From: an uncultured Prochlorococcus sp.
GTDB lineage: Bacteria; Cyanobacteriota; Cyanobacteriia; PCC-6307; Cyanobiaceae
DNA: 51,435 bases
Reading direction: 5' to 3'
NCBI GenBank assembly: GCA_902535185.1
Contig: CACAST010000005.1
Span: 1 to 51,435 of the forward strand
Below, in pieces: positions 24,009 to 46,840 of this stretch. Under the pieces are notes generated by a model, which was not told the origin of the DNA, made no database searches, and saw only the letters and a program-made list of their open reading frames with translations. Numbering within the stretch: position 1 is the stretch's first letter; each line of letters starts with the position of its first letter. A program made the translations under genes and the position numbers.

Positions 24009-25184
24009 ATGGATAAAATAGGCGTCTTACTAATGAATTTAGGGGGGCCTGAACGCATTAACGATGTAGGCCCATTCTTATATAATCTTTTTTCTGATCC
24101 AGAAATAATTAGGACCCCTTTCCCTGTTTTTCAAAAACCCCTAGCCTGGTTAATTAGTACGCTTAGGAGTACTACTTCACAACAGGCCTACCTTTCCATA
24201 GGTGGAGGATCACCTATCAGAAGGATAACTGAACAACAAGCAAGAGAACTACAATCTAAATTAAGGGACAAGGGGTTTAATGCCACTACCTACATCGCTA
24301 TGAGGTATTGGCATCCTTTTACTGAATCAGCAATTGCTGATATGAAAGCAGATGGCATAGATCAAGTTGTTGTAATACCTTTGTATCCGCATTTTTCGAT
24401 AAGTACTAGTGGTTCGAGCTTTAGAGAATTAAAAAAATTGCGAGATTCCGATGATGAATTTAAGAAGGTTCCAATGAGATGTGTAAGGAGTTGGTTCAGT
24501 CAATCAGGTTATTTAAAGTCTATGGTCGAATTAATTTCTGAACAGATTTCACTTTGTGAATCACCTTCAAAAGCCCATATATTTTTCACTGCTCATGGAG
24601 TTCCTAAAAGTTACGTAGAGGAAGCTGGAGACCCCTATAAACAACAAATTGAAGATTGTTCTTTACTAATTATAAATGAGCTTGAAAAATGTTTAGGTCA
24701 TTCTAACCCTCATACACTTTCTTATCAAAGTAGAGTTGGCCCTGTTGAATGGTTGAAGCCTTATACAGAAGAAGTGTTAGCTGATCTTGGGAGGTCAAAT
24801 GTTAATGACCTGATTGTGGTCCCTATAAGTTTCGTTGGAGAGCATATCGAAACATTGCAAGAAATTGATATTGAATATAAAGAAATTGCTGAAAAGGCTG
24901 GTATCAAAAATTTTCGGAGAGTTAAGGCTCTAAATACTCATCCTACTTTTATTGAAGGTCTTAGTGATCTAGTGATTTCCTGCTTGGAAGGGCCTCTTAT
25001 TAATATTGAGGAGGCCTCTCAGTTGCCTGAAAAAGTAAAACTTTATCCTCAGGAGAAGTGGCAATGGGGTTGGAATAATAGTTCAGAGGTGTGGAACGGA
25101 AGAGTTGCAATGATTATTTTTCTTGTGCTTTTTATTGAACTTATTTCAGGCTCTGGACCTTTACATAGATTAGGAATCTTATAA
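24009..25184 (+). CDS. hemH: Ferrochelatase with C-terminal chlorophyll-binding (CAB) helix
   Basis: Inserts ferrous iron into protoporphyrin IX to make haem. The 391-residue protein has LLMNLGGPE at the N-terminus, FTAHGVP with the catalytic His near residue 200, and [10 protein letters not shown] with its glutamates near 280. After residue 340 a linker leads to a membrane helix with [10 protein letters not shown], a light-harvesting (CAB/LHC) motif found in cyanobacterial and plastid ferrochelatases. This ties the enzyme to the thylakoid. It is divergent from the recombinase gene across 65 bases, where the promoters of both must lie. Assignment is certain. Confidence 0.98.
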
Positions 25185-45616: not shown

Positions 45617-46201
45617 TTAACTTAGACCTATCTCTTTTTTTAAAAAAGGTGACATAATTTTTGCTGCTTTACCTCTACTACCTAATTTATTTAATTGTGA
45701 TTGTGAGAGCTCACCGTAAACACAGTTAGACTCTTTTACCCAAAAAATAGATTCGAATTCCCCGTTTGGATATTTGGGGTTCTTAAGAATTTCTCCCCAG
45801 CAAATTCCTGTTGTATCTTTAACTAAGTTTCCTGAGGGATCGCACAAAACCATACAACTTATAAATCTTGCACTCCTATAAGGACTATCAGAAAGTTCAT
45901 TAATTAATTTTTTAATTTTCTCATCATTAGTTTTGGCATATCGAGCAGAATAAATTCCTGGCCGACCATCTAAAACATCTACTTCAAGACCCGAGTCATC
46001 AGCTAATGCCCAAGTTTTAGTTTCTAAAGCAGCTGCTTTTGCTTTTAGAAGTGCATTCTCAAAATATGTGTTTCCAGTCTCTTCGACATCTAAATATTCT
46101 GGTTGCTTCTGAACCTTTAAAGACAAAACATCCAGCATCTCTGAAATTTCAGATACTTTTCTTTGATTACCACTAGCAATAGTTAGAACTGGAAGGTTCA
46201 A
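45617..46201 (-). CDS. rdgB: Non-canonical purine NTP pyrophosphatase (RdgB/HAM1)
   Basis: Removes dITP, ITP and XTP from nucleotide pools. The 194-residue protein begins with LTIASGNQRKVSEI, has EETGNTYFENALLKA near residue 42 and ALADDSGLEVDVLDGRPGIYSARYA near 66, and ends with the SRGKAA segment. It is convergent with csoS1D and divergent from csoS1 across a 327-bp gap. Any RNA read leftward from the GC-rich island in that gap would run into this gene. Assignment is certain. Confidence 0.97.
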   Translation of the reverse strand: MNLPVLTIASGNQRKVSEISEMLDVLSLKVQKQPEYLDVEETGNTYFENALLKAKAAALETKTWALADDSGLEVDVLDGRPGIYSARYAKTNDEKIKKLINELSDSPYRSARFISCMVLCDPSGNLVKDTTGICWGEILKNPKYPNGEFESIFWVKESNCVYGELSQSQLNKLGSRGKAAKIMSPFLKKEIGLS

Positions 46202-46250
46202 AATAGCAATTAAAATTATTGTGAATATTATCTTACTTCAAAGCTTGATA

Positions 46251-46307
46251 CGGAGACAGGAAAGGTTGAACATTCCACACCTGTATAGACAGGGCCTGCC
46301 TCGTACG
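46251..46307. ncRNA. Candidate structured RNA, strand undecided
   Basis: About 54% G+C by hand count (31 of 57), far above the surrounding DNA. CCTGTATAGACAGG forms a 5-bp hairpin with a 4-base loop; ACAGG before it can pair with CCTGT instead; and TACGGAG near the left edge can pair with CCTCGTA near the right. In very AT-rich genomes, intergenic GC islands often mark structured RNAs. It does not match tRNA, tmRNA or SRP RNA signatures that I know. Confidence 0.45.
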
Positions 46308-46378
46308 GAAATAACATAATGTAAATTTTTTCTTAACACAACAGTATGTTTTGATGCACTAACTAATTTGCATAAGTA

Positions 46379-46408
46379 TTGACATATCAATAGTACCAAG
46401 GGTGATAA
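46379..46408 (+). promoter_or_regulatory. Candidate csoS1/cbb operon promoter
   Basis: TTGACA at 46379-46384, a perfect -35 hexamer, is followed after 18 bases by TGATAA at 46403-46408. The predicted start of transcription near 46415 leaves a leader of just over 100 bases. The -10 overlaps the palindrome at 46405-46419. A second TTGACT at 46462-46467 lacks a convincing -10. Confidence 0.5.
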
Positions 46409-46419
46409 GTTTAACTTAT
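46405..46419. promoter_or_regulatory. 15-bp palindrome over the -10 region (operator candidate)
   Basis: ATAAGTT-T-AACTTAT is a perfect 7-1-7 palindrome. The same ATAAGT/ACTTAT half-site recurs at 46372-46377 and as the 10-bp palindrome ACTTATAAGT at 46465-46474. The arrangement looks like sites for a dimeric regulator of carbon fixation. Confidence 0.5.
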
Positions 46420-46528
46420 GAATGATAGAAAAAACATTAATGGAGATTTTGTCGAAAACGCTTGACTTATAAGTACTTAATGAAGCATTCTTCGAATTGA
46501 ACATTCCACATTTAGTATTTAGTAGACA

Positions 46529-46840
46529 ATGGCTACAGAAACAATGGGTATCGCTCTCGGCATGATCGAGACACGCGGACTTGTACCTGCAATCGAAGCA
46601 GCAGACGCAATGACAAAGGCAGCAGAAGTTCGCCTTATTGGTCGTGAATTTGTTGGTGGCGGATATGTCACAGTATTAGTTAGAGGCGAAACAGGCGCAG
46701 TTAACGCAGCTGTAAGAGCTGGTGCTGATGCTTGTGAAAGAGTTGGTGACGGTTTAGTTGCTGCTCATATTATTGCTCGTCCTCATAGAGAAGTTGAACC
46801 TGCTCTAGGTAACGGTGAATTTCTTGGTCAAAAGGACTAA
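46529..46840 (+). CDS. csoS1: Major carboxysome shell protein CsoS1 (BMC domain)
   Basis: Forms the hexagonal tiles of the alpha-carboxysome facets. The 103-residue single BMC domain starts MATETMGIALGMIETRGLVP and contains GGGYVTVLVRGETGAVNAAV and VAAHIIARPHREVE. First gene of the operon csoS1-cbbL-cbbS-csoS2-csoS3, 69 bases before cbbL. Its codons are richer in G+C than those of most neighbours, in line with very high expression or with the known foreign origin of the alpha-carboxysome genes. Assignment is certain. Confidence 0.98.
   Translation: MATETMGIALGMIETRGLVPAIEAADAMTKAAEVRLIGREFVGGGYVTVLVRGETGAVNAAVRAGADACERVGDGLVAAHIIARPHREVEPALGNGEFLGQKD

Follow-up and report, generated by a model that had tools for sequence, protein, structure and literature searches.

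Prochlorococcus and marine Synechococcus are major carbon fixers of the ocean, and to our knowledge it is poorly understood how carboxysome levels are set with few protein regulators. Primary transcriptomes of MED4 and MIT9313 were reportedly described by Voigt et al. in 2014, and an earlier annotation there of the transcript discussed below is not excluded.

Axmann et al. 2005 (PMC1242208) list as cluster 87 a 336-nt element upstream of rbcLS in MIT9313 and WH8102 (ALIFOLDZ -4.24/-3.64); its row, the part of that paper on which we draw, carries the comment 'conserved promoter', is marked NT (not tested), gives no strand, structure or target, and has no MED4 or SS120 member. By position and length, this cluster is very likely the spacer between rdgB and csoS1 that we describe here. 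Among small RNAs, Yfr10 pulled down csoS1 and csoS2 mRNA in MED4, according to the available part of Lambrecht 2019 (PMC6778093), where csoS1 is given as a Yfr10 target and the present RNA was not found. The main text of Steglich 2008 (PMC2518516), as far as it was available, mentions none of csoS1, PMM0549, PMM0548, carboxysome, rbcL or rdgB, and the 2020 metagenomic sRNA framework (PMC7368042) mentions none of csoS1, rdgB, carboxysome or rbcL. Our literature searches, in which papers were partly accessible and supplementary files lay outside the scope, returned no description of the RNA and no start-site data for the spacer.

The rdgB-csoS1 spacer and its GC-rich island

The window, that is the whole stretch of 51,435 nucleotides that was analysed, comes from an uncultured Prochlorococcus sp., inferred from gene content and genome size to be of high-light (HL) type within the alpha-cyanobacteria, and the spacer within it is bounded by two genes on opposite strands:

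45617-46201, minus strand: rdgB (Ham1 family; PF01725, E 2.5e-47)
46529-46840, plus strand: csoS1, a BMC-domain shell protein (PF00936, E 1.5e-26), followed by rbcL as identified from open reading frames

A first-pass annotation had drawn attention to an island of about 54% G+C in AT-rich DNA. The measured value for the 57 bp at 46251-46307 is 54.4%, against 26.3% in the remaining intergenic region, and only 112 of the 51,379 stretches of 57 bp across the window (0.2%) reach it. Of the two inverted repeats named at the time, CCTGT-ATAG-ACAGG is located at 46280-46293. The outer one, TACGGAG/CCTCGTA, holds in part: TACGGAG is present at 46249-46255, but its partner is imperfect, the complement of 46299-46305 being TACGAGG. 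The outer stem backed by comparison pairs GAGACAGG (46253-46260) with CCTGCCTC (46295-46302) and is extended in the window's lineage by ATAC (46248-46251) with GTAC (46303-46306).

Taken alone, on neither strand does the window's sequence fold significantly better than when it is shuffled (z -0.8 to -1.2), as would also be the case for a chance GC-rich island without function, and the case for an RNA therefore rests on conservation across genera. At the DNA level, the spacer was matched in 207 of 266 genomes of the genus and in 112 of 400 of the family, and in an alignment of 42 spacers the element is among the most conserved parts, together with the csoS1 promoter and the motif GAACATTCC. A covariance model, R1, identified the RNA in at least 187 of 300 family genomes and at least 44 of 59 genera; these counts are lower bounds because the filters were strict, one genome (G298) being unmatched there yet reaching E 0.004 unfiltered (as L213). 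Given its presence in 187 genomes and its compensatory changes, we give the chance reading next to no credence. When 291 genomes from across the class were sampled, a single genome outside the family gave a match, and a weak one (G723, E 0.004).

Structure, strand and predicted promoter of the RNA

The comparison gives good support to the reading of the GC-rich island as a conserved structured RNA, with the following predicted parts:

46248-46306, minus strand: structured RNA, some 55 bases long, read toward rdgB from a predicted 5' end near 46306 (covariance model R1, compensatory changes in P1 and P2, bias of G-U over A-C)
46295-46302, minus strand: RNA 5' arm of the closing stem P1, GAGGCAGG (double changes; lineage extension at 46303-46306)
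46253-46260, minus strand: RNA 3' arm of P1, CCUGUCUC (lineage extension at 46248-46251)
46280-46293, minus strand: hairpin P2, CCUGU-CUAU-ACAGG (double changes in 6 of 7 pairs)
46268-46276, minus strand: near-invariant core, GGAAUGUUC, the proposed pairing seed (intact in 79 of 81 rows of alignment A2; altered in L043 and L230)

R1 matches the window at 46247-46308 on the minus strand with 66.4 bits. In alignment A2, which comprises 81 sequences, double (compensatory) changes are found in all 8 pairs of P1 and in 6 of the 7 pairs of P2, so that the conservation and covariation among relatives whose absence was to have refuted the initial idea are both present. The A2 structure is paired in 94.1% of 1330 cells (88.4% for P2 alone), and both sides have changed in 134 cells (0 of 500 shuffles); controls in which the structure was slid along the alignment gave at most 61.9% of cells paired and at most 30 with both sides changed. 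P1 appears in 36 arm combinations, one of which is an empty truncated row, and has been rebuilt in some genera (GAGACAGG/CCUGUCUC, GGAACCGG/CCGGUUCC, GAAACGGU/ACCGUUUC, GCGUCAGU/UCUGACGC, GCAACACG/CGUGUUGC), a whole swap of its arms being visible by eye in the locus sequences as well. RNAalifold's own prediction on A2 yields 17 pairs, 12 of them with double changes. We note that A2 was itself fitted to the structure of the covariance model, and pair counts therefore lean toward that model. On the first alignment, A1, RNAalifold recovered P1 alone and no double changes, because its 39 sequences are too alike and P2 is misaligned in it; the wider set A2 resolved both. A weak third hairpin around the core shows no double changes in A2, and in predicted folds the seed is partly self-paired, with a mean unpaired probability of 0.63.

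In line with the initial impression that the island fits no known RNA family, Rfam 15 gave no family at gathering score anywhere in the window, and permissive Rfam searches of the spacer and 16 other loci found nothing at the element, with one unrelated sub-threshold hit in the spacer.

The assignment of the RNA to the minus strand, the rdgB side, is likewise well supported by comparison. Stability is no guide here, since the plus strand can also form P1 and P2, folding energies are alike on both strands (the minus strand being lower in 20 of 39, so that energies alone do not decide) and the A1 consensus fold has a z of -3.0 on the plus and -3.6 on the minus strand. It is thus conceivable that the structure belongs to an extended csoS1 leader or to another RNA, of small size, running toward csoS1. 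Departures from Watson-Crick pairing, however, fit the minus strand by 96 to 10 when G-U is counted against A-C (34:3 in P1, 62:7 in P2), 79 of 80 sequences carry a minus-strand TAnnnT box 5-10 nt ahead of the P1 foot, as compared with 6 of 80 for the opposite flank, and csoS1 has its own conserved predicted promoter further downstream. A plus-strand RNA is accordingly very hard to sustain.

The boxes in question read as follows in the window:

46313-46318, minus strand: predicted -10 box of the RNA, TATGTT (form TAnnnT)
46336-46341, minus strand: predicted -35 box of the RNA, TTGTGT, 17 nt from the -10 (sequence prediction)

The TAnnnT count leaves out one truncated sequence (L207), and the box is missing in L206; TTG occupies the -35 place in 50 of the 80 sequences. 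The window's lineage has 10 nt between the box and P1, together with a stem that is about 4 bp longer, which brings the predicted start, 46306, again to the foot of the stem. One mark of a base-pairing regulatory RNA of the trans-acting kind, a promoter of its own at the 5' end, is therefore present, as a prediction from sequence only.

Complementarity to the predicted csoS1 mRNA 5' end

The core has a second copy in the same spacer, which the first-pass annotation had not included, any more than the mechanism proposed below. An exact repeat of 14 nt, TTGAACATTCCACA, occurs at 46266-46279 and at 46497-46510, the latter copy lying behind the predicted csoS1 promoter:

46462-46467, plus strand: predicted csoS1 -35 box, TTGACT (sequence prediction)
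46486-46491, plus strand: predicted csoS1 -10 box, CATTCT, separated from the -35 by 18 nt (a distance shared by all 42 spacers)
46499-46507, plus strand: second copy, GAACATTCC, at the predicted csoS1 mRNA 5' end, the proposed target (exact repeat, duplex energies; pairing possibly to about 46513)
46405-46419, no strand assigned: palindrome ATAAG-TTTAA-CTTAT of T-N11-A type (TGATAAG/CTTATCA form at 46403-46421), upstream of the csoS1 promoter

The last of these, largely conserved in the 42-sequence alignment, is an observation in its own right and presumably a LysR-type (RbcR) box.

The RNA core GGAAUGUUC is the complement of the csoS1-leader motif GAACATTCC. All 42 spacers share the geometry TTGAC[TG]-N18-(-10)-N7-GAACATTCC, and this fixed promoter geometry places GAACAUUCC at the start of the csoS1 mRNA (predicted 46499). 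The start sites of both the RNA and csoS1 remain predictions, without RNA-seq or 5'-end data. TGAACATTCCA is otherwise absent from the window's genome assembly, which is about 65% complete.

Every one of the 38 distinct pairs of RNA and leader is predicted to form a duplex of -20.4 to -31.2 kcal/mol, and 19 further loci give -24.1 to -35.3 kcal/mol. The mean of the RNAs' own pairs beats that of permuted pairs (0 of 2000), and among non-HL pairs (n=29) it was beaten or equalled in 1 of 5000; an RNA's own target is not always its best, the mean rank being about 8 of 38. We asked for a conserved seed that is complementary to an mRNA leader and co-varies with it, and this is what the comparison reveals, clearly so at two flanking positions. 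In a set of 87 loci (one genome, G319, being present twice, as L049 and L247), merged to 66 distinct rows, positions 2 and 3 beyond the core co-vary with the leader (2 and 0 of 2000 permutations within GC classes); of the nine positions tested, position 6 shows a weak effect (49 of 2000), positions 1, 4, 5, 7 and 9 no clear one, and agreement at position 8 falls below that of the permuted data. At position 2, the combination of element T with leader C, an A-C in the duplex, is absent, and element C with leader T (G-U) occurs 7 times; positions 1-6 together have 9 A-C clashes and 37 G-U.

The two copies also tend to be kept together. Of 90 genomes that have the RNA, 88 carry an intact csoS1 copy; of 12 that lack it, 4 do (n=102; Fisher 9e-8). 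The loci compared were chosen partly as model hits and partly as non-hits and are not a random sample: the 102 derive from 108 loci after removal of 4 duplicates (L047, L242, L244, L247) and of 2 in which the csoS1 start could not be read (L220, L253), and the presence of the element was assigned by hand for 10 loci outside A2. Permutation and Fisher values moreover overstate independence because the loci are related by shared ancestry. Among the exceptions, four loci (L211, L216, L217, L222) keep GAACATTCC at csoS1 with no credible match to the RNA, L217 having an element remnant at 16 bits, which suggests either that the leader is under some constraint of its own or that the RNA was recently lost. 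Others keep the RNA with an altered core (L043, L230, L233, L241) or an altered csoS1 leader (L152, L233).

These four leader-only loci, the fixed distance of the csoS1 copy from the -10 box in 42 of 42 and the narrow spacing of the two copies, 230-237 bp within the 42-sequence set, would also suit a constraint at the DNA level, with GAACATTCC as a duplicated operator through which a transcription factor co-regulates or loops the divergent promoters, the RNA structure being otherwise employed. This arrangement breaks down, however, in 18 loci of larger-genome genera (including g6, g10, g23 and g45; L196-L208, L231, L234-L237), where a gene stands between rdgB and csoS1 and both copies are retained 1591-1889 bp apart. 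In the one locus tested (L204; Pfam, E 3e-119), the intervening gene encodes an Sbt_1 bicarbonate transporter; in others of the 18 it is taken as transporter-type only from the similarity of the open reading frames. Folding of 13 of the 18 loci (L196-L208) gave duplexes of -24.5 to -35.3 kcal/mol. In addition, one of the copies lies inside a covarying RNA structure, and the mismatches show the asymmetry of G-U over A-C that is typical of RNA pairing. An operator thus seems to us improbable. Looping at a fixed helical phase was rejected separately, because 230-237 bp is not one phase and the spacing is broken in the 18 transporter-type loci.

Two further sets of sites are recorded here for their own sake. 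At some 47 kb from csoS1, two genomes of the window's genus share a conserved TGAACATTCCA site (L071:743 and L072:694, both flipped) that may be a second target; the DNA around it is conserved as well and precedes an open reading frame that resembles a sigma factor (likeness only). The other TGAACATTCCA sites in nine genomes are mostly in coding sequence and looked like chance. In another genome (G320, genus g56), two intergenic sites (L081:700-790 and L082:690-785) carry GAGACARGG-TTGAACATTCCA in a predicted stem-loop and, downstream, TGTTCGGTT..GGTAG.GCTTTCC. They would complement the RNA over both a P1 arm and the core, and could be a sponge or relocated copies; their exact pattern was found in 1 of 300 genomes.

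Relation to rdgB, proposed function and known systems

The RNA lies upstream of rdgB on the same strand. In most loci 60-105 nt lie between the end of P1 and the conserved rdgB motif, with exceptions of up to 702 nt, and no terminator was recognised between the two when T-runs and sequences were inspected by eye, without a terminator program. The RNA is therefore probably also the 5' leader of rdgB, freed, if at all, by processing. The rdgB gene may nevertheless own a separate promoter, since 50 of 81 loci have a -10-like CAnAAT no more than 75 nt beyond P1 (about 9 in shuffles); CAnAATGG lies between the RNA and rdgB in 29 of 81. The window's lineage has GATAAT in its place:

46227-46232, minus strand: possible second -10 box, GATAAT, for rdgB alone, downstream of the RNA (read from the sequence)

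This position raises the possibility that the RNA is purely a cis-acting leader of rdgB, riboswitch-like or protein-bound, whose structure would govern translation of rdgB or the stability of its mRNA, with the match to csoS1 either secondary or reversed in direction, the csoS1 mRNA acting on rdgB. The RNA is also missing from the five loci for which rdgB was not detected close to csoS1 (L214, L215, L216, L221, L222), as expected if the RNA served rdgB alone. Yet in six others (L210, L211, L212, L218, L219, L223) rdgB is upstream of csoS1 and the RNA is missing, the -10-like CAnAAT motif leaves rdgB a possible promoter of its own, and the near-invariant part of the RNA is just the part that matches the csoS1 leader and co-varies with it at two positions. 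We consider a role confined to rdgB unlikely, without dismissing it.

We instead favour, with a probability of roughly 0.6, a base-pairing regulatory RNA, probably also the rdgB leader, that targets the 5' end of the csoS1 mRNA, a target that is inferred in the absence of transcript data. The minus-strand promoter would start the RNA near 46306, at the foot of the 8-12 bp closing stem P1, which would enclose hairpin P2 and the near-invariant segment with the core GGAAUGUUC. This segment and the adjoining 3' strand of P2, which lengthens the predicted pairing, would pair with the first 14-17 nt or so of the csoS1 mRNA (UUGAACAUUCCACA...), a stretch beginning about 30 nt before the start codon. 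Genome comparison shows the fold, its strand, the promoter box at its foot, the complementarity to the csoS1 leader and the co-variation at two positions; that the RNA is made, that it pairs with the csoS1 mRNA in the cell and that pairing alters how the carboxysome-Rubisco operon mRNA is translated or degraded are inferences. As to the sign of regulation, we lean to repression because the duplex would extend as far as about -16 relative to the start codon, although protection of the 5' end could just as well make the mRNA more stable. The same transcript would also form the rdgB 5' leader, from which the RNA would be released, if at all, by processing.

The two options originally put forward, a regulatory RNA beside the carbon-fixation genes or a leader of rdgB, thus both gain support, from the covarying structure, the rdgB strand and the complementarity to the csoS1 leader, and the same RNA may be both. 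More tentatively, and with somewhat less than even confidence, we suggest that a leader of rdgB, a house-cleaning gene, doubles as a trans-acting antisense RNA on the first nucleotides of the carboxysome-Rubisco mRNA in most genera of the alpha-carboxysome family (Prochlorococcus, marine Synechococcus and Cyanobium types, names inferred). If this is true, carboxysome synthesis would be tied to the divergent rdgB-side transcript. A conserved RNA whose core is copied at the predicted start of the operon mRNA provides a concrete candidate regulator with a directly testable seed and target, one that may help to control the building of carbon-fixing compartments.

Like the present RNA, Yfr1 and Yfr10 of Prochlorococcus are small RNAs with a conserved exposed motif, as described in the available parts of PMC6778093 and PMC2518516. 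Their 11-nt motif, ACUCCUCACAC, is absent from the region, with one match of one mismatch in the window, at 24481; unlike them, the present RNA adjoins csoS1 and carries the complement of its predicted 5' end. Yfr2/Cyano-1 (RF01701) is also a widespread structured sRNA of cyanobacteria. Membership in that family had been suspected from the GAGACARGG-TTGAACATTCCA sites and from a Yfr2-like GTGTGAGGA in L082, and was rejected because the RF01701 matches in the nine genomes searched lie elsewhere, 20 RF01701 loci are without GAACATTCC and permissive Rfam searches gave no match at the element. RblR, an antisense RNA of Synechocystis, is said to overlap rbcL in cis. It is an RNA reported to act on RuBisCo expression, in the accessible part of PMC5306279; unlike RblR, the present RNA would pair through a separate duplicate copy, and it belongs to a different cyanobacterial family.
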